Positions 755-27,466 of a stretch of DNA of 32,148 bases are shown in pieces; the stretch's first letter is position 1; each line of letters starts with the position of its first letter. Below the pieces are notes generated by a model. That model was not told the origin of the DNA. It ran no database searches and was given only the letters and a program-made list of their open reading frames with translations. Location: assembly GCA_022801815.1 (NCBI GenBank), contig JAAWTB010000005.1, positions 1 through 32,148 of the forward strand. Direction: 5' to 3'. The stretch comes from Oscillibacter sp. (GTDB lineage: Bacteria; Bacillota; Clostridia; Oscillospirales; Oscillospiraceae). The translations under genes were made by a program, and so were the position numbers.

Positions 755-886
755 CGATGAAGAGTGTCCATACCACTCAACACCATAGTCTATCCAAGAC
801 TACACCGTATCTCCCATTATACTGTCATATCGCCCAATTTGCAACAGGAAATGGGTTTGGTGTTTCGCTTTGATTGAAGTTCAGTC

Positions 887-922
887 AAGCGGTGTTGAGT
901 TATACGCTCAACACCGCTTTTT
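887..922 (+). terminator. Rho-independent terminator-like hairpin in the leader of the RCC1/SLH gene
   Basis: AAGCGGTGTTGAG (887-899) / CTCAACACCGCTT (907-919) followed by a T run to 922. Confidence 0.7.
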
Positions 923-925
923 ATG

Positions 926-988
926 TTTCCAACAGACCCCTGGGCGGGGGCGCGTCCCCCCGCCCGCCCTTCGGGGCTTTGTTGGAAA
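926..988 (+). promoter_or_regulatory. Structured leader element upstream of the RCC1/SLH gene
   Basis: Closing stem TTTCCAACA (926-934)/TGTTGGAAA (980-988) encloses CCCC/GGGG and the GGGCGGGGG (942-950)/CCCCCGCCC (957-965) stem, just before the RBS. Confidence 0.5.
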
Positions 989-1013
989 TTTTATTTTGAG
1001 AGGAAGAAAACAC

Positions 1014-2744
1014 ATGAAAAAGAAATGCTTATCTTTAATCTTAGCGTTGTATCTGTGCGTTGGGCTGGCTTTTCCCGTGATGGCAGAGGGAAATTTAGGA
1101 AAAGCTGGGCAGACAAATACCGTATGCGCAGGCAGTGGAATTTCTGCTGTAATTGACCAGAATGGCTCACTATGGATTTGCGGCGATAACTGGTGCGGCC
1201 AGCTTGGCAACGGCGTACAGGGCGGCAAAAATGCGGTGAATTTTGTGAAAGTGATGGATAATGTCGTTTCTGTCAGTTGCAGTGGCAGATTTGTTGCCGC
1301 GATTAAATCGGATGGAAGTCTCTGGATGTGGGGGGACAATTCCCACGGAGAACTGGGCAACGGCGGGAAAGCAAACGCAATTATAGATGAAGCAAACCGT
1401 TACCAGACAGAACCTGTAAAAGTAATGGACGGCGTTGCCGCTGTCAGCTGCGGATCCGATTATACTGGGGCGATTAAGACAGACGGAAGTCTTTGGATGT
1501 GGGGTAACAATGAACGGGGTCAGCTTGGAAATGGTGCCTATTCGAAATCCAATATTCCAGTAAAGGTGCTGGACGATGTTGCCGCTGTCAGCTGCGGCGA
1601 TAACGCCACTACTGGCGCGGTCAAAACCGATGGCACGCTTTGGATGTGGGGCAGTAATTTCAATGGTCAGTTAGGTAACGGTGAAATACAGCGGCAAGAC
1701 GGCGTGGTTAGTCCGACAAAGATTATGGATGGTGTTGCGGTGGTCCATTGTTCCAGTATGCAATCCGCCGCTATTAAAACAGATGGAACACTCTGGACTT
1801 GGGGCGAAAGCAGTTTGTTGTCCAATAAGGCCAACCCGGTAAAGGTGATGGATGATGTTGCATCCGTCAGCGGAAACATGATTCTCAAGACGGATGGAAC
1901 ACTTTTGCTCGTAGAGGATAAAACTTCTTTTGAAACACTTTTGGGCTTAGCAGACAAATCCTCACTGGAGGGACGGACAATCATTACAACACAAGTGCTA
2001 GATAATGTAGCCGCTTTCAGCAGCAACAGCCAAGTTTTAGCTGTGAAACGGGATAGTTCCCTCTGGGTTTGGGGCAGTAATTTCAACGGCGAACTTGGAA
2101 ACGGCGGTACTGGTGATAAAAAAGAGGCCGGAGAAGGGGAAGGTGAAGTTACTTACTCTCAAACTACTCCTATAAAACTCAGTTTAACGGTGGCACTTCC
2201 TGGAACCTCTCGATCTTCTCCCGCTATAGGTAGTTTTATTGATGTAAAGGCAAGCGACTACTTTGCGGACGCAGTACGATGGGCGGTTGAAAAAGACATC
2301 ACCAGCGGCACCAGTAAGACCACATTCTCCCCCGGCGCGACTTGCAGCAAGGCGCAGATTTTGACTTTCTTGTGGCGCGCTAACGGCGCGCCGGAGCCGA
2401 CAGCAGCGAATCCGTTTACAGATATTAAACCCGTCGATTACTTCTATAAGGCGGCTCTGTGGGCCGCTGAAAAGGGGCTTGTGTCCGGTTCCACCTTTGG
2501 CGCAAACGCCGATTGTACCCGAGCCATGACTGTGGAATATATGTGGAAAGCGGCGGGAAGCCCTGCGCCCGCTAGTAAGTCCAGCTTTACCGATGTTCCC
2601 GCCAATGCGGACTATGCGCAAGCCGTGGCATGGGCGGTAGAGAACGAAATCACCAGCGGAACGGGCGGCGGTAACTTCTCTCCCAATTCCACATGTACCC
2701 GCGGGCAGATTGTCACCTTCCTACACCGGGCTATGGGTAAATAA
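1014..2744 (+). CDS. Secreted RCC1-repeat protein with three C-terminal SLH domains
   Basis: ATG at 1014 after a GAGAGGAAG RBS; signal peptide MKKKCLSLILALYLCVGLAFPVMAEG. Seven RCC1-like repeats of type DGSLWxWGxNxxGQLGNG (at least two degenerate) are followed by three SLH motifs. The longer frame from 870 has no convincing N-terminus. Confidence 0.9.
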   Translation: MKKKCLSLILALYLCVGLAFPVMAEGNLGKAGQTNTVCAGSGISAVIDQNGSLWICGDNWCGQLGNGVQGGKNAVNFVKVMDNVVSVSCSGRFVAAIKSDGSLWMWGDNSHGELGNGGKANAIIDEANRYQTEPVKVMDGVAAVSCGSDYTGAIKTDGSLWMWGNNERGQLGNGAYSKSNIPVKVLDDVAAVSCGDNATTGAVKTDGTLWMWGSNFNGQLGNGEIQRQDGVVSPTKIMDGVAVVHCSSMQSAAIKTDGTLWTWGESSLLSNKANPVKVMDDVASVSGNMILKTDGTLLLVEDKTSFETLLGLADKSSLEGRTIITTQVLDNVAAFSSNSQVLAVKRDSSLWVWGSNFNGELGNGGTGDKKEAGEGEGEVTYSQTTPIKLSLTVALPGTSRSSPAIGSFIDVKASDYFADAVRWAVEKDITSGTSKTTFSPGATCSKAQILTFLWRANGAPEPTAANPFTDIKPVDYFYKAALWAAEKGLVSGSTFGANADCTRAMTVEYMWKAAGSPAPASKSSFTDVPANADYAQAVAWAVENEITSGTGGGNFSPNSTCTRGQIVTFLHRAMGK

Positions 2745-2899: not shown

Positions 2900-4375
2900 T
2901 TATAGGATAATGCAGATAAGCCCCCCGCTGCCCTCGTTGATGATGCGGGTCAGGGTCTCCTGAAGCTTCTTCCGGGCGTCGTCCGGCATCCGTTTCAGCT
3001 TGCCCTGGAGGTCGTCGCTGACCAGTTCATGGAAGCTCCGGCCAAAGATGTTGGACTGCCAAATCTTGCTGGTGTCCCCCTCGAACTCCTGGAGCAGGTA
3101 GTTTACCATGTCCTCGGACTGCTTTTCGTTCCCCACGATGGGCGACACCGCCGTCTCAATGTCCGCCCGGATCATGTGGATGCTGGGGGCACTGGCCTTC
3201 AGCTTCACGCCGTAACGGCCTCCCTGCTTCATGATCTCCGGCTCCTCCAGCTTCAGCTCGTCGATGCTGGGCACCACGATGCCATAGCCCGTTTCCTTCA
3301 CATCCCGCAGGGCCCCGGCCACCTTGTCGTACTCCGCCTTTACCGCCGCCAGGCGGGTCAGCAGGCTCATCAAATCCCCGTCGTCCCCCACCTCAAAGCC
3401 CGACTGCTCCGACAAGGTGTGATAGAACAGTTCCCGGGGCAGACTCAGGCTGGCCGCCGCCACGCCGGTGCCCAAGTCAATGGAGGTAATTTTCGCCTCG
3501 CTGATGTTCTCGCAGGCCCCCAGGGCGGAGATGACGCCCTCCACCTCCCGGATGTGCTGAAGCTGGGAGGTCCCCTGGCGCACTGCATCGTAGAGGCTGG
3601 CCTTGATGGGGTGATCCGTCGGCAGGGCGTCCACCCAAGGGGGCAGGAACAGGTCCAGCTCCTGCATGGGGAACTCGTAGAGGACGGCCCGCAAGATATC
3701 CGCCACGTCCTCCTCCCCCAGGTCCAGGCAGTTTACCGGGACGCAGTTCACCTCATAGCGGCTGCTGATATCCCGGGCAATGGCCTCCGCCCGGTCGCTT
3801 TTGGGGTCCACGGAGTTCAGCAGGACGATGAAGGGCTTTCCCAGCTCCTGGAGCTCCCGGACCACCCGTTCCTCCGCCTCCAGGTAGTCTTCTCGGGGGA
3901 TGTCGGAGACGGTGCCGTCTGTGGTAATCACGATGCCGATGGTGGAGTGTTCCGAGATGACCTTCCGGGTGCCGATTTCCGCCGCCTCCGTCATGGGAAT
4001 CTCGTGGTCATACCAGGGCGTGGTAACCATCCGGGGGGCGTCGTCCTCAAACTGGCCGATAGCCCCCCGTACCATATAGCCCACGCAGTCAATGAGCCGC
4101 ACGGAGAACGAAGCGCCGTCGGGCAGCTGCACCTGGGCCGCTTCCTCCGGGACGAACTTGGGCTCCGCCGTCATAATGGTCCGGCCGGAGCCGCTTTGGG
4201 GCAGCTCATCCCGGGCTCGCTCTTTACGGTACACATTTTCAATGTTGGGAATCACCTGGGTCTCCATGAAACGCTTGATGAAGGTGGACTTGCCGGTCCG
4301 CACCGGGCCCACCACGCCGATGTAGATATCCCCCGCCGTGCGGGTGGCGATATTCTGATAAATGGTCGTGTTCAT
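2900..4375 (-). CDS. spoIVA: Stage IV sporulation protein A (spore coat morphogenetic ATPase)
   Basis: 491 aa from MNTTIYQNIATRTAGDIYIGVVGPVRTGKSTFIKRFMETQVIPNI, with a Walker A GPVRTGKS typical of SpoIVA. Confidence 0.97.
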   Translation of the reverse strand: MNTTIYQNIATRTAGDIYIGVVGPVRTGKSTFIKRFMETQVIPNIENVYRKERARDELPQSGSGRTIMTAEPKFVPEEAAQVQLPDGASFSVRLIDCVGYMVRGAIGQFEDDAPRMVTTPWYDHEIPMTEAAEIGTRKVISEHSTIGIVITTDGTVSDIPREDYLEAEERVVRELQELGKPFIVLLNSVDPKSDRAEAIARDISSRYEVNCVPVNCLDLGEEDVADILRAVLYEFPMQELDLFLPPWVDALPTDHPIKASLYDAVRQGTSQLQHIREVEGVISALGACENISEAKITSIDLGTGVAAASLSLPRELFYHTLSEQSGFEVGDDGDLMSLLTRLAAVKAEYDKVAGALRDVKETGYGIVVPSIDELKLEEPEIMKQGGRYGVKLKASAPSIHMIRADIETAVSPIVGNEKQSEDMVNYLLQEFEGDTSKIWQSNIFGRSFHELVSDDLQGKLKRMPDDARKKLQETLTRIINEGSGGLICIIL

Positions 4376-4412: not shown

Positions 4413-4440
4413 AATCTATGCCCGTCCGGCGGAAAGTATG
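4413..4440 (-). promoter_or_regulatory. Sigma-E-like promoter for spoIVA
   Basis: Minus strand reads CATACT-TTCCGCCGGACGGG-CATAGATT, i.e. ATACT-N14-CATAGATT (-35 4435-4439, -10 4413-4420), close to the mother-cell sigma-E consensus ATATT-N14-CATACAnT. About 38 nt from -10 to the ATG. Confidence 0.6.
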
Positions 4441-4515
4441 ACGGCCCGTCTTGTTTTGGAGAAAACACACAAGGAAGTTTCGCCTCCGACCGGGCTGATT
4501 TGGTCGAAATCACGC

Positions 4516-7098: not shown

Positions 7099-7133
7099 AA
7101 AGCGTGCGGGAGAAACTCTCCCGCACGCTTTTT
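7099..7133. terminator. Terminator hairpin between the ABC transporter operon and sipL (convergent)
   Basis: AAAGCGTGCGGGAG (7099-7112) / CTCCCGCACGCTTT (7118-7131) plus T run; overlaps the 3' end of the convergent sipL. Confidence 0.9.
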
Positions 7134-8671
7134 CAGGCTCTTTTTCTGGGAATCAGCAGCATTTGATCCTGTGGGATATCCCCCTCTCCCTCCAGCTGGT
7201 TGGCGGAGAGGATAGCGGCGATGGTCGTGTTATATTTTTTCGCCAAATCCCAGGCGCTTTCCTGTCTTCCAATACACCGCAGAACCAGCGAGGGCGCCCC
7301 TCCCAGATCTTTGGTGGTTTCCGTATCCAGCTTGGCGGCGGAGACACAGACCTTCTTCACCCTGGCTGCCGCCTCTACGTGGAAGTCTACCGGGAAACGA
7401 ACCTCAATGCCGCGATCTCCCAAAGTGCCCTGAACCTCCTCGGCGCAGACGGCTCGGGCAGTAATCCGGCAATCCTCCGGCAGCTCCAGCTGACAGCCGG
7501 CGTCCAGGCTCCGCTCCGCCACCAGTGGTACGCCGCCCTCGTCTAAGTACATGGCCCGAACCGTTACCCCAGCCCGGAGAACCGCCATACTTCCCTCCCG
7601 GCTGACAGACACTGCGCCGCATTTGGCAGAGATGGCCAGAATGGACTCGGCCACTACGCCAATCTCCAGCACCTCCCGCAGGGTTTGGCGGCGGGAAAGG
7701 TTTTCGCAAAAGCCGGTAATGCTCAGTGGCGCAGCCTCGTAGGACATGTCATATGCGGTGGAATACAGATCACTAAGCAGGGTCAGCTCCTGCTCTTCCC
7801 GCAGCAGAGCTGTGGCATGGAGATACAGCGTTACAGCAATCTGCCGGCCCTCCGGATCGTCGCCGTCGATTTGCAGATCCGTGCCTGTCAGCTGCAATTG
7901 CATGCTGGCGGCGGAGCCCTCCACGGCCCCCTCTACCTCCATAATCTGAGAAAACGGTAATTCCGAGGTAACGGAACCGCAGCTGCCGTTATTGTCCCGG
8001 TAGAGCAGACTGATGGAAAAGACGCCTTTGAAAATCAGCTTGCTCCCTACGATTTTCGTCTCCGTGACGGTGCTGGAAACCTGACTGGTCAGCAGCTCCG
8101 CCGCCCCTTCCCGGCCTGGGGAAAGGTTCATTTCTTCTGTAAAGGTAAAATCCTTTTCTGCAATGTGCGTCAGGAGGATAGCATGCTGCTCCTCCTGGCG
8201 TTTTTCCACCTGAAGCTCTGGTTCTGCCTCCGTATCTGAACAAAATACCAAAGGTTTGCGCTGGTAGCCGGTCACATGAGTCACCAGCTTGCAGTGGGTA
8301 AAAATCTTCCGGGGGTTCAGCATGCGAGCCTCCAGAAATTCCGTCTCCGTCTCCACCGTCAAGTGTTGACAGCCTGGCAGAGCCCGGCCGTCACTTTCGG
8401 CAGTAAAGGGGATGGCGAATTCCAGTGTGCGAATGCCGCTCTCCCCGTCAGGGGTATACAGCACCGTAACCCGTAGGGTGCCGGAAAGCTCCGCTTTTCC
8501 ATCCCGCAGCTCCCGGCTGTGTAAATAGACCTTTCCGTCTGTTTGAATGATGCGGGCGATATCGGGGCAATAATCCGGCACAATGGTCTCCGCCGTCTCC
8601 TCCTGGGTTAGGGTCAGCTCCCCGCCCGTGTCATAGGCGTCCAAAGACACTTTTTTCAAATCCAGTTCCAT
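7133..8671 (-). CDS. sipL: SipL-like SpoIVA-interacting protein (DUF3794/SPOCS repeats plus C-terminal LysM)
   Basis: 512 aa starting MELDLKKVSLDAYDTGGELTLTQEETAETIVPDYCPDIARIIQTDGKV; SPOCS-type repeats; C-terminal LysM-like RQESAWDLAKKYNTTIAAILSANQLEGEGDIPQDQMLLIPR. Confidence 0.88.
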   Translation of the reverse strand: MELDLKKVSLDAYDTGGELTLTQEETAETIVPDYCPDIARIIQTDGKVYLHSRELRDGKAELSGTLRVTVLYTPDGESGIRTLEFAIPFTAESDGRALPGCQHLTVETETEFLEARMLNPRKIFTHCKLVTHVTGYQRKPLVFCSDTEAEPELQVEKRQEEQHAILLTHIAEKDFTFTEEMNLSPGREGAAELLTSQVSSTVTETKIVGSKLIFKGVFSISLLYRDNNGSCGSVTSELPFSQIMEVEGAVEGSAASMQLQLTGTDLQIDGDDPEGRQIAVTLYLHATALLREEQELTLLSDLYSTAYDMSYEAAPLSITGFCENLSRRQTLREVLEIGVVAESILAISAKCGAVSVSREGSMAVLRAGVTVRAMYLDEGGVPLVAERSLDAGCQLELPEDCRITARAVCAEEVQGTLGDRGIEVRFPVDFHVEAAARVKKVCVSAAKLDTETTKDLGGAPSLVLRCIGRQESAWDLAKKYNTTIAAILSANQLEGEGDIPQDQMLLIPRKRA

Positions 8672-8713: not shown

Positions 8714-8741
8714 TACTCTATGCGCCGCCAAGGCGGAATAT
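8714..8741 (-). promoter_or_regulatory. Sigma-E-like promoter for sipL
   Basis: Minus strand ATATT-CCGCCTTGGCGGCG-CATAGAGT(A): -35 8737-8741, N14, -10 8715-8722. RBS GGAAAGGAAGGAG follows before ATG 8671. Confidence 0.65.
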
Positions 8742-8744
8742 GTT

Positions 8745-8813
8745 TCAGACCTTAAAAATCTTCTTCAGAATACCCCGGAGCATTTTAGGGGACTTCCATA
8801 CCACGATATTCAT
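8745..8813 (-). CDS. spoVM: SpoVM, 22-aa amphipathic-helix sporulation protein (absent from the supplied ORF track as its own ORF)
   Basis: ATG..TGA encoding MNIVVWKSPKMLRGILKKIFKV behind CTGAGAGGAGGCGTCTT-ATG. Ungapped match to B. subtilis SpoVM (MKFYTIKLPKFLGGIVRAMLGSFRKD) at M1, K7, P9, K10, L12, G14, I15, with conservative V16L and R17K. Located downstream of rsgA as in B. subtilis. Confidence 0.85.
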   Translation of the reverse strand: MNIVVWKSPKMLRGILKKIFKV

Positions 8814-8833: not shown

Positions 8834-9037
8834 TCAACGCCGACAGCAGGCGCAGCCGCAGCCGATCAGTAGAAATGCAACCAGGAACATCAATACCCCC
8901 ACCGGGAACACGGCGGCAATCAAAATTCCTGCGCCCAGGGCCACGGCGAACAAGCCCAGCAGACGAATTCCCCCGCCGCCTCCGTTTCCGCAGCCCCAAT
9001 TTCCAAAGCCTCCAACGCCCCCATTTCTACAGTTCAT
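8834..9037 (-). CDS. Small 67-aa Gly/Cys-rich membrane protein upstream of spoVM
   Basis: MNCRNGGVGGFGNWGCGNGGGGGIRLLGLFAVALGAGILIAAVFPVGVLMFLVAFLLIGCGCACCRR, with RBS GGAAAGGAGG ahead of ATG 9037. One long or two short hydrophobic segments; ends CGCACCRR. Confidence 0.7.
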   Translation of the reverse strand: MNCRNGGVGGFGNWGCGNGGGGGIRLLGLFAVALGAGILIAAVFPVGVLMFLVAFLLIGCGCACCRR

Positions 9038-9090
9038 TGCGTCACGCCTCCTTTCCTTCCAGTATATACGGAAGGGCCGTCCAAGGTGTG

Positions 9091-9120
9091 AAAACCCCCG
9101 CCTCAAACCGGAGGCGGGGG
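9091..9120 (-). terminator. Rho-independent terminator after rsgA
   Basis: Minus strand CCCCCGCCTC-CGGTTT-GAGGCGGGGG-TTTT (9095-9104/9111-9120, T run 9091-9094). Confidence 0.85.
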
Positions 9121-9121
9121 G

Positions 9122-10003
9122 TCACTTTTTTTCCTGCCAATCCCGAAGAGGCTTCAGCTCCTCCCAAAGGCGCAGATAGCTGTCATGCCGGCTTTGCTGA
9201 ATATCTCCCCGACGGAGAGCCTCCAGCACGGCGCAGCCCTTCTCCCGCGTGTGGCTGCACCCCACAAAGCGGCACTGGTCCAGATAGGGCGCGAACTCCA
9301 AAAAGGTCTCCGGCAGACGGCGTTTCAGCTCCAGGTCCAGCTCCGCTCCGTCGAAAGAGGAAAAACCGGGAGTGTCCACCACCTCCGCCCCGCAGGAAAG
9401 GCGGTGCAATTCCACATGACGGGTGGTATGCCGTCCTCTTCCCAAGGCCATGCTGACCTCGCCCACCTGCAAGTGAAAATCTGGCTCCAACGCGTTTAAA
9501 ATGCTGGATTTTCCTACGCCGGAATTGCCTGTAAAGGCAGAGAGCTTTCCAGATATCAGGAGCTTTAAATCTTCCATTCCCTCCCCGGTCTCCGCACTGA
9601 TCCGCAGAGTTGCAAATCCAGAGGCACTATAAACATCATAGAGGATATCCGCCGGGTCCAGGTCACACTTGTTCAGCAGCACAACCACCCGGCATTCCTT
9701 CAGCGCCGCAATGGCGGACACCCGGTCTATAAGAAACGGGTCTGTTTTGGGAACAGCGGCAGAGGCGATGACCACCAGCTGGTCGATGTTGGCTACAGCG
9801 GGCCGGGAAAAAGCATTTTGCCGGGGCAAAACCTTCTCCACAACTCCTTCGCCGCCGCCTAGCTCCCGAATCTCCACCCGGTCCCCCACCAGGGGGGAAA
9901 TTCCTTCTTTCCGGAATTTCCCCCTGGCCCGGCATCGCAGGATCACTTCGCCGGTATTCACGTAGTAGAAGCCGCTGAGGGCCTTTTGAATGCGTCCTGT
10001 CAT
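9122..10003 (-). CDS. rsgA: Ribosome small-subunit-dependent GTPase A (RsgA/CpgA)
   Basis: Circularly permuted GTPase with LLNKCDLDP, GNSGVGKSSILNAL, DTPGFSS and a Zn-binding C-x5-C-x-H-x6-C region (CRFVGCSHTREKGCAV). ATG 10003. Confidence 0.96.
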   Translation of the reverse strand: MTGRIQKALSGFYYVNTGEVILRCRARGKFRKEGISPLVGDRVEIRELGGGEGVVEKVLPRQNAFSRPAVANIDQLVVIASAAVPKTDPFLIDRVSAIAALKECRVVVLLNKCDLDPADILYDVYSASGFATLRISAETGEGMEDLKLLISGKLSAFTGNSGVGKSSILNALEPDFHLQVGEVSMALGRGRHTTRHVELHRLSCGAEVVDTPGFSSFDGAELDLELKRRLPETFLEFAPYLDQCRFVGCSHTREKGCAVLEALRRGDIQQSRHDSYLRLWEELKPLRDWQEKK

Positions 10004-10004
10004 A

Positions 10005-12008
10005 TCAGCTGAACTGCACTTCCTGTATCTGGCTCTGATCCAGTATGCCGTCAAAGTAAACCTTCACGGTCTGGATGCCGGAACCTTTCAGCGGAGGATT
10101 TGTATAGACGGTTCCGTCGGCTGTGCTGACGCGCTCAGCAAACTGCGGGTTCTCCTCATCCCCCACATAGACCTCCACCAGAACCGTTGTGCGGTCATCC
10201 TGGGGCAGTGTGATGGTAATTCCCACCTCGTGGACGGTGATGCCCTTGCTGACCTTGAATTGGATGGTGTCCCATTCGCTTACCGTTGTAAGGGGCTCCA
10301 GACTCTGCCAGATTACGCTGTTGGGCTCGGCTTCGCTTTCCACGTATTCGATATCGGCAGGGGTGCAAGTCAGGTGCAGAGAATCCAGTAAGGACCGCAA
10401 CACCGCGTCAATCTGCATGCCGACGAAGTTGGACACCACCACCGGCTTTTGCTCCGGGCCCTTGCTGATAATCAGACGGATAATGTCGCCGTCTTTCAGC
10501 TCCTCATGTTCAGCGGGCTCGCTTCGGATAATATAGCCCTCGTTTACCTCGTCGCTGAACTCCATCGCGGCCTCGTCGGCAATAATTTCCAGATTGTATT
10601 TCTCCTTCAGGCTTTTCAGAAGGACATTGGCCTGAGCCACGGTCTTGTTGGTCACGTCCAGCATCTCGCCGGTATCCTCTCCGGCGCTGAGCCAGACCTC
10701 AATGAGCAGGTTGCCGCCCTTGCGGTGCTCTCCCTCTGCCGGACTCTGCCGGGCAATGGTCCCTATAGGGTAATCCTCGCTGAACTCACTTTTCTCATTG
10801 ACCTTTAAGGTGAAAATATCCCTCACGCTGTCCAGATTGGCAGCCTGTTCCGGCGTGTAGCCCAGTACCGAGGGTACCACATAGGTCTGGGGTACTTCCT
10901 GCTGCTGTTCAAAGGACTCCGTGACCATTTTAAACAGTACCGCTGCCAGAGCCAGAGCCAGCACGATGGCCACGCCTATCAGCACCTTCACCCCGGCGCC
11001 TCCGCCGCCCTGCCTGAGCGGCTCGTAGTCGTCCTCATAATCCCGGCGGCGCTCTCGGGGCCTTTCCCGCTCCCGGCCCTTGGGGGTGGGATGGAGGGTC
11101 TGGTCGTAGGTGCGGATAGGCTGGGTGGGTTCCGCCGGCTCTTCCGGTCGGAGATCCACCATGGTAAAGTCCAGATTGATGTTGGGATTTTTCCGAAAAT
11201 CCTCCAGATCCACGATCATAGCGTCGGCGGAGGCGTAACGCCGGCTCAAGTCCGGCGTCATGGCCTTCATGCAGATCAGCTCCAGTTGGGCCGGAATCTC
11301 CGGATTCAGCTCCCGAGGGGGCAGGGGCACGGCGCTGAGATGCTGGATGGCCACGGACACGGCGGAATCCCCTTCAAAGGGCAGCCGCCCGGTAAGCATT
11401 TCGTACAGGACCACGCCGGAAGAGTAAATGTCGCTTCGGGCGTCGGTCCGCTCTCCTCTCGCCTGTTCCGGCGAAATATAGTGAACGGAACCCAGGGCCT
11501 CCTGCGTCAGGGTCTGTGCGGAGTTCTCCAAACAGGCGATGCCGAAATCGGCCACCTTCACGCTGCCGTCCCGGAGCACCATGACGTTTTGCGGCTTGAT
11601 ATCCCGGTGGACAATGCCCCGGCTGTGGGCGTGGCTGAGACCCCGCATGATCTGGGTAATAAAGTGCAAAGACTCCCGCCAGTTCAGCTGGCCCCGTTTT
11701 TCCATATACTGCTTCAGCGTGATGCCGTCAATAAGCTCCATGACGATATATTCCGTATCCCCGCCCCGGCTCACGTCGTAGACCGACACGATATTGGGGT
11801 GGGACAGCTGGGCCACAGCCTGGGACTCCGCGTTAAACCGGCGGCGGAAATCCTCATCCTGGGCCAGATCGCTTTTCAATATTTTTAACGCCACAAGGCG
11901 GTTCAGCCGGTGGCACTTGGCCTTGTAGACCACCGCCATGCCTCCGGTGCCGATGCGCTCCAAAATTTCATAGCGGTTATCCAGCATTTTTCCAATGTAC
12001 TGATCCAT
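10005..12008 (-). CDS. prkC: Ser/Thr protein kinase with PASTA domains
   Basis: Kinase motifs HRDIKPQNVM and DFGIA; TM segment VKVLIGVAIVLALALAAVLF; PASTA repeats; extra C-terminal beta-type extension. Confidence 0.96.
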   Translation of the reverse strand: MDQYIGKMLDNRYEILERIGTGGMAVVYKAKCHRLNRLVALKILKSDLAQDEDFRRRFNAESQAVAQLSHPNIVSVYDVSRGGDTEYIVMELIDGITLKQYMEKRGQLNWRESLHFITQIMRGLSHAHSRGIVHRDIKPQNVMVLRDGSVKVADFGIACLENSAQTLTQEALGSVHYISPEQARGERTDARSDIYSSGVVLYEMLTGRLPFEGDSAVSVAIQHLSAVPLPPRELNPEIPAQLELICMKAMTPDLSRRYASADAMIVDLEDFRKNPNINLDFTMVDLRPEEPAEPTQPIRTYDQTLHPTPKGRERERPRERRRDYEDDYEPLRQGGGGAGVKVLIGVAIVLALALAAVLFKMVTESFEQQQEVPQTYVVPSVLGYTPEQAANLDSVRDIFTLKVNEKSEFSEDYPIGTIARQSPAEGEHRKGGNLLIEVWLSAGEDTGEMLDVTNKTVAQANVLLKSLKEKYNLEIIADEAAMEFSDEVNEGYIIRSEPAEHEELKDGDIIRLIISKGPEQKPVVVSNFVGMQIDAVLRSLLDSLHLTCTPADIEYVESEAEPNSVIWQSLEPLTTVSEWDTIQFKVSKGITVHEVGITITLPQDDRTTVLVEVYVGDEENPQFAERVSTADGTVYTNPPLKGSGIQTVKVYFDGILDQSQIQEVQFS

Positions 12009-26025: not shown

Positions 26026-27159
26026 TCAGAAAGCCCTCCCCAAAATCCCCTGAACCGCCCGAAGCAGCCGGGCAATCTCCTCCGGCGTGTTGAAATCAGA
26101 GAAGCTGACGCGCACGGTACCGGTGTCCAGCGTCCCCGCCGTGCGGTGGGCGTAAGGGGCGCAGTGAATGCCTGCCCGGACGGCAATTCCCCGCTCCGCC
26201 AGGGCGGAGCCGATGGTTTCTACGTCCACGCCTTCCGCTGTCAGGGAGAGAACCCCTGTTTGGTTTTGAAGTCCCGGAGAAGCAAAGAGACGCAGGCCGG
26301 GCATAGCTTCCAGACCCTGAAGGGCCAGCTGTGTTAAATGCTTTTCATGCGCCAGGATCTTATCTGGTCCTCCCCGGCGGACATACCGAACGCCGGCCAG
26401 CAGACCCGCGATTCCCGGCATGTTGAGGGTTCCGGCCTCCAGGCGATCCGGCAGAAAGTCCGGCATCCGCTGCTGGATGGACTGGCTTCCGGTGCCCCCT
26501 TCCAGAAGAGGACGGGTAAGCACGTCCTCCCGGCAAAGCAGTACGCCGGTTCCCTGGGGACCGTAAAGGCCCTTGTGTCCCGGCATGGCGATGAAGGCTG
26601 CTCCCAAAGCCTCCATGTCCAAGGGCAGCACCCCAGCGGACTGAGAGGCGTCGATGATGAAAGGGACGCCCCGGCTCCGGCAGATGGCGGAAATCTCCCC
26701 CACCGGCTGGATGAAGCCAAAGACATTGGAGACGTGGCTGCAAACCACCGCATCTGTTCCGGGGACAATGAGACGGTCAAAGGCTTCCGTCACCGCCTTC
26801 GGCTGGAAAAGCGGAGCGGCAGCAACGGCAATTTTCGCCCCCAAAGCCTCCAGGGGCCGGGTTACGGCGTTGTGCTCATAGCCGGAGACCACTGCCCGCC
26901 CGCCCGGCGGCACCAGGCTTTTGATAGCGATATTTAGTGCATGGGTAGCGTTAAGGGTAAATACCACCTGCTCCGGATTTTTCAATCCGAACAGCTCCGC
27001 CAGTTCCGAACGGCACCGGAAAGCCGTGTCGGCGGCCCGGGCGGCGGCGGGATAGCCTCCCCGCCCCGGGGAGCTCATGGAGGCCAGGGCCTCCCACATG
27101 GCGGCGGCGACAGAAGCGGGTTTTTGAAAACTGGTGGCCGCGCTGTCGAAATAAATCAT
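26026..27159 (-). CDS. Class V aminotransferase / cysteine desulfurase family protein (EF2568-like)
   Basis: MIYFDSAATSFQKPASVAAAM, VFTLNATHALNIAIKSL, PLP-lysine motif AMPGHKGLYGPQGTGVL. Confidence 0.9.
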   Translation of the reverse strand: MIYFDSAATSFQKPASVAAAMWEALASMSSPGRGGYPAAARAADTAFRCRSELAELFGLKNPEQVVFTLNATHALNIAIKSLVPPGGRAVVSGYEHNAVTRPLEALGAKIAVAAAPLFQPKAVTEAFDRLIVPGTDAVVCSHVSNVFGFIQPVGEISAICRSRGVPFIIDASQSAGVLPLDMEALGAAFIAMPGHKGLYGPQGTGVLLCREDVLTRPLLEGGTGSQSIQQRMPDFLPDRLEAGTLNMPGIAGLLAGVRYVRRGGPDKILAHEKHLTQLALQGLEAMPGLRLFASPGLQNQTGVLSLTAEGVDVETIGSALAERGIAVRAGIHCAPYAHRTAGTLDTGTVRVSFSDFNTPEEIARLLRAVQGILGRAF

Positions 27160-27407
27160 GGCCTCACCTCCTGGTACAGGCCTTTCTGAAACAAAAATAT
27201 TTGAACGGGGTCCAGACTGTCCCTGTGGAGAGCGGTCAGGGCCTCCGGCAGATCGGAAACTGCCACGCGCACAGCGTAAGCACAGCCCATATCCGTCAGG
27301 TCTCTGGAAGGCCGGAAGATATGGCAGCGGATGCCCGCCCGGCCCAGGGACTTCTGCATCCGCTGGGCATAGGTTACGGAGCGGGCCAGGATGATATAGT
27401 GCTCCAC
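27156..27407 (-). CDS. DUF3343 putative Se/S carrier-like protein
   Basis: GTG start after AAAGGAGG: VEHYIILARSVTYAQRMQKSLGRAGIRCHIFRPSRDLTDMGCAYAVRVAVSD; overlaps the aminotransferase start. Confidence 0.8.
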   Translation of the reverse strand: MEHYIILARSVTYAQRMQKSLGRAGIRCHIFRPSRDLTDMGCAYAVRVAVSDLPEALTALHRDSLDPVQIFLFQKGLYQEVRP

Positions 27408-27466
27408 AAACACTCCTCCTTTCTCTCCTATTCTATGGGGCTGGGAGCGAAAGGTGCCAAAGCGTG

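Follow-up and report, generated by a model that had tools for sequence, protein, structure and literature searches.

A predicted hairpin microprotein encoded directly upstream of spoVM in Clostridia

Analysis of a 32,148-nt stretch of an Oscillibacter genome (hereafter the window) revealed that a 67-residue open reading frame directly upstream of spoVM is a real, selected protein-coding gene. Its homologues place it in a far larger Clostridia family, of which it is the form found in one lineage; the conserved element of the family is a predicted two-helix hydrophobic hairpin core. Members lie ahead of spoVM in many spore-formers from gut and environmental habitats. We infer, with about an even chance of being right, that this microprotein is a membrane hairpin made by the mother cell and working alongside SpoVM in the SpoVM-SpoIVA-SipL basement layer.

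Gene organization of the locus

The source genome is a MAG of 1.83 Mb and 65% completeness, the relatives of which are named Oscillibacter, Dysosmobacter or Oscillospiraceae bacterium. The relevant features of the window are as follows.

2900..4375, minus strand: spoIVA
4413..4441, minus strand: sigma-E-like promoter of spoIVA, TCATACT-N14-CATAGATT
7133..8671, minus strand: sipL, downstream of spoVM (two SPOCS matches and a LysM match)
8715..8743, minus strand: sigma-E-like promoter of sipL, ACATATT-N14-CATAGAGT
8745..8813, minus strand: spoVM, MNIVVWKSPKMLRGILKKIFKV (NCBIfam score and SpoVM profile search)
8834..9037, minus strand: SpoVM-linked hairpin microprotein (uP), 67 residues (ORF, homologues, dN/dS, AlphaFold2)
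Parts of the microprotein: variable Gly/Cys N-terminus, residues 1-21; helix 1, residues 22-43; turn with the invariant P45; helix 2, residues 46-66; CGCACCRR tail
9047..9053, minus strand: ribosome-binding site of the microprotein, AAGGAGG, read from the sequence, 9 nt 5' of the ATG
9061..9089, minus strand: conserved mother-cell-type promoter (shared motif), ACACCTT (9089-9083) followed by TATATACT (9068-9061)
9095..9120, no strand assigned: GC-rich hairpin terminator of rsgA, between the rsgA and microprotein units
9122..10054, minus strand: rsgA, upstream neighbour in a separate unit, named from its own sequence alone

The initial annotation had described a 67-residue frame with its own ribosome-binding site that ends 20 bp before spoVM, in a unit separated from rsgA by a terminator. 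Both points hold: translation of the window gives this frame at 8834-9037 on the minus strand, preceded by AAGGAGG at 9053-9047, with 20 bp between its stop codon and the ATG of spoVM at 8813, and rsgA ends at 9122 in front of the hairpin at 9095-9120. The spoVM of the window is real, although it scores 21 bits against an NCBIfam cut-off of 31. Together with sipL and spoIVA, it completes the set of known basement-layer genes of Clostridia within the window. The microprotein shares its surroundings with the SpoIVA-SipL layer, the genes of which carry sigma-E-like promoters here; SpoIVA and SipL, however, are large soluble scaffold proteins, whereas the microprotein is a predicted membrane hairpin. 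Adjoining spoIVA is a gene for an RCC1-repeat protein with S-layer homology domains (870-2744, plus strand).

The microprotein is a selected gene

Conservation in relatives, on which the reading of the initial annotation depends, was found in 34 of 36 same-genus genomes, with the microprotein directly 5' of spoVM in every same-genus locus inspected. Among 49 distinct cores, dN/dS has a median of 0.09 in frame, compared to 1.4 and 3.1 in the two other frames; together with the homologues, this led us to reject a chance ORF. In the two remaining genomes (G005 and G036, 79-80% complete), the microprotein, sipL and spoIVA were all not found, indicating that either the cluster is absent from the assembly or sporulation has been lost.

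Being the first ORF 5' of spoVM and separated from it by a short gap, the frame might be a leader that only regulates spoVM translation, the peptide itself being irrelevant. This explanation is scarcely tenable and largely refuted by the dN/dS of 0.09, by residues invariant across several orders and by the retention of the microprotein where spoVM is missing; the leader-peptide reading was therefore rejected.

The microprotein is paired with spoVM across lineages

At the level of the order, a profile built on 26 members matched 122 of 247 genomes, normally once per genome. In all 69 genomes with matches to both proteins, the two genes are adjacent on the same strand with the microprotein first, mostly 10-60 nt apart; the sole two extra matches in these genomes are weak second matches within longer frames. 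The pairing tracks spoVM rather than sipL, as seen in three genomes: spoVM lies at a great distance from sipL in G044 and is divergent from it in G041 and G054. At the level of the class, the microprotein was found in 90 of 293 genomes with one match each. It adjoins SpoVM in 72 of the 72 carriers with a detected SpoVM, and nine further carriers have a divergent SpoVM next to it. The membrane microprotein paired with spoVM that the initial annotation had proposed is thus borne out, and adjacency in 69/69 and 72/72 genomes argues against frequent occurrence away from spoVM.

Beyond the class, strong matches are confined to the genus g259. Its homologues at first appeared off-locus, yet a broader SpoVM profile placed the SpoVM start 1-7 nt past the microprotein stop in 7/7 genomes, and they were rejected as counter-examples. 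Moreover, in at least 76 of 80 named spoVM loci, including those of Oscillibacter valericigenes Sjm18-20, Agathobaculum desmolans and A. butyriciproducens, spoVM is preceded by the microprotein or by a small hydrophobic ORF resembling it, and a divergent two-helix ORF lies there even in some genomes that the microprotein profile missed. Many of the genomes are MAGs and the profiles have limited sensitivity for proteins of 22-50 residues, so absences are softer than presences. Locus L292 (G735) has two hydrophobic ORFs of 51 and 50 residues, both similar to the microprotein, in tandem 5' of spoVM, possibly as a result of duplication.

Architecture of the hairpin

Sequence comparison of 32 diverse members from several orders revealed three invariant residues, G37, P45 and G61, two almost invariant ones, G28 and G35, and an almost uncharged core of ~38 residues. 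The N-terminus is net positive in 32/32 members, and the C-terminus is neutral or positive; by the positive-inside rule, both ends are predicted to face the mother-cell cytosol. AlphaFold2 predicted helices at residues 22-43 and 46-66 preceded by a disordered N-terminus, in a modest model with a mean pLDDT of 68 and a pTM of 0.37. The ORF of the window fits the family profile, which comprises a G-x-G in helix 1, a proline at the turn and a glycine in helix 2.

The Gly/Asn/Cys-rich N-terminus and the CGCACCRR tail are confined to Oscillibacter and close kin. The emphasis that the initial annotation had laid on this N-terminus and on the GCGCACCRR end was therefore misplaced, since these segments are variable in the genus and absent in other families, whereas the hairpin core is conserved. 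A Gly/Cys-rich coat protein was rejected as the defining feature because the N-terminus varies and the cysteines are not conserved outside the genus.

Comparison with known families

Searches against Pfam and NCBIfam gave no score over the curated cut-offs, only scattered weak matches. Neither a fold search of the PDB with the hairpin nor a phage tblastn search returned a match, and PHROG gave none for the window protein, other members having scattered weak matches to unnamed families (best E 0.015). The NCBIfam model of SpoVM did not match the microprotein either, which has two hydrophobic helices instead of a short amphipathic one. SpoVM (NF033436) is similar in being a tiny sporulation membrane protein that is encoded in one transcription unit with the microprotein and occurs in sporulators only. 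It differs in forming a single amphipathic helix of 22-30 residues, compared to the two-helix hairpin of unrelated sequence.

Two helices with charged ends are the architecture of class II holins, and the microprotein shares the two helices and the positively charged ends. It may accordingly be some other small membrane protein of sporulation that has nothing but its promoter in common with spoVM, with a role in the cortex, in membrane lipid packing or in class II holin-like mother-cell lysis. We regard this as quite unlikely, given that the microprotein has no match to characterised phage families, has no lysin or other lytic enzyme as a neighbour and is fixed to spoVM; a shared promoter alone leaves the constant order and adjacency over many lineages unexplained. 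A holin or phage origin, in particular, is not supported by the PHROG search with the window protein or by the phage tblastn search.

The probable C. difficile counterpart

In C. difficile, the gene for CD25622, a 50-residue protein of unknown function, shares a transcript with spoVM, and VM transcription is under sigma-E control (Ribis et al. 2017, PMC5607322). CD25622 was described as unique to, or "primarily conserved among the Peptostreptococcaceae" (PMC5607322). An insertion in CD25622, probably polar on spoVM, caused a 3-5-fold heat-resistance defect and coat bearding, matching the spoVM mutant, and the authors concluded that CD25622 has little impact (PMC5607322).

Our class search recovered a 50-residue family member (E=7.8e-6) before spoVM and adjoining rpmB in G868. 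The C. difficile tpi forward primer has an exact match in this genome, and the reverse primer matches apart from 2 positions at a distance corresponding to the 227-bp product, which suggests that G868 is Clostridioides or a close relative. CD25622 is likewise a small ORF of 50 residues directly 5' of spoVM and near rpmB, but lacks the Gly/Cys-rich N-terminus of the Oscillibacter microprotein. We conclude that CD25622 is probably the C. difficile member of the family, matched by position, length and neighbours, and that the family extends well beyond the range stated for CD25622, spanning several Clostridia orders and one genus beyond. The label "uncharacterised" in the initial annotation holds only with a qualification, since the C. 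difficile counterpart was noticed in 2017 (PMC5607322). The novelty of the family is as judged from the libraries and open-access literature searched.

The microprotein and SpoVM without each other

SpoVM is missing from the locus in nine of the class-level carriers, namely seven genomes of family f166, G070 and G756. The broader SpoVM profile, which recovered the left-out divergent controls G868, G104 and G127, gave only partial weak matches in these nine genomes, eight of which have spoIVA. In f166 (loci L279, L280, L281, L315, L316, L317 and L318), rpmB adjoins the microprotein in five of seven loci, whereas the microprotein of G070 sits before sipL. A terminator-like inverted repeat directly follows the microprotein in L280. 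Family f166 is a candidate for SpoVM-less Alkaliphilus; the existence of distant SpoVMs in Alkaliphilus, Thermoanaerobacter and others is a question left open by Galperin et al. 2012 (PMC3533761). Conversely, spoVM occurs without an upstream hairpin microprotein in f171, f190 and f154 (inspected loci L286, L287, L291, L297, L299 and L303).

Retention in nine genomes without detectable SpoVM indicates that the microprotein is not just a SpoVM accessory. It also bears on the suggestion that the hairpin protects or times SpoVM, either by shielding it from proteolysis or by adapting FtsH, with which B. subtilis SpoVM interacts according to the citation of Cutting 1997 in PMC5607322. The strict gene pairing, a gap frequently short enough for coupled translation and the hydrophobic hairpin would suit such a role, which is nonetheless unlikely, the microprotein being kept in those nine genomes.

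The same genomes raise the possibility, albeit a fairly unlikely one, of an anchor independent of SpoVM, in which the hairpin itself would tether SpoIVA/SipL to the outer forespore membrane, side by side with SpoVM and as its replacement where SpoVM is lost. The nine carriers in which even a lax profile detects no SpoVM, the spoIVA in eight of them and the absence of the microprotein from SpoVM-keeping lineages such as f171 and f190 are consistent with this idea. However, the probable double mutant of C. difficile is no more severely affected than the spoVM mutant (PMC5607322), and with a protein as short as SpoVM, a strongly diverged copy could escape detection. If true, an independent anchor would help to answer the question of Galperin et al. 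2012 on SpoVM-less spore-formers (PMC3533761).

Link to sporulation and the shared promoter

Among class-level genomes, spoIVA is present in 85 of 90 microprotein carriers compared to 134 of 204 non-carriers (Fisher p=3e-8). SpoVM is present in four of the five carriers without spoIVA, in which an assembly gap probably explains the absence of spoIVA. The microprotein is thus nearly confined to SpoIVA-carrying genomes, and these counts argue against its presence in non-spore-formers.

The unit of microprotein and spoVM is preceded by a putative mother-cell-type promoter. The motif ACC-N14..18-nnTA[TGA]A[AC]TG occurs upstream of the pair in 50 of 80 related loci, compared to 0/80 in a downstream control and 0.5 in shuffles. 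Compared to the consensus sequences of B. subtilis sigma factors, the -10 element resembles that of sigma-E/sigma-K (CATAnnnT), whereas the -35 element (ACC) is like that of sigma-K (mACm) at least as much as that of sigma-E. The sipL and spoIVA promoters of the window match sigma-E better. A promoter of the microprotein type, GCACCTT-N13-CATAGAAT, also lies at 27407-27457 on the minus strand, before a small ORF, judged by eye to be DUF3343-like, and a gene for a class-V aminotransferase (26026-27159).

Proposed role in the basement layer

The basement-layer role beside SpoVM is proposed because the microprotein is a selected, single-copy gene with a conserved hairpin, a fixed position at spoVM, co-occurrence with spoIVA, a shared promoter motif and a cotranscribed counterpart in CD25622. 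We propose that, once the cell has divided asymmetrically, a mother-cell sigma factor would direct joint transcription of the microprotein gene and spoVM, with coupled translation possibly fixing the microprotein:SpoVM ratio. The microprotein would then insert as a helical hairpin into the mother-cell-derived outer forespore membrane, leaving both ends in the mother-cell cytosol. The small-residue G-x-G face of helix 1 and G61 of helix 2 may mediate helix packing or self-assembly. As a membrane-embedded partner beside SpoVM, the hairpin could stabilise or position SpoVM and the SpoIVA-SipL scaffold.

The strongest evidence against a major role in C. difficile is the CD25622 insertion, the only known mutant and probably a polar one, the phenotype of which does not go beyond that of the spoVM mutant (PMC5607322). 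In addition, the existence of several lineages that have SpoVM without the microprotein, a -35 element as sigma-K-like as sigma-E-like and the modest structural model weigh against the basement-layer role.

Textbooks describe SpoVM as the protein that anchors the spore coat in the membrane, yet C. difficile can largely do without it, and searches of several spore-formers did not find it. Its invariant neighbour, hitherto treated as an oddity of the Peptostreptococcaceae, is a concrete candidate for a missing component. As a marker, the microprotein located divergent SpoVM genes below the SpoVM-profile cut-off in Clostridioides and in the families f31 and f23.
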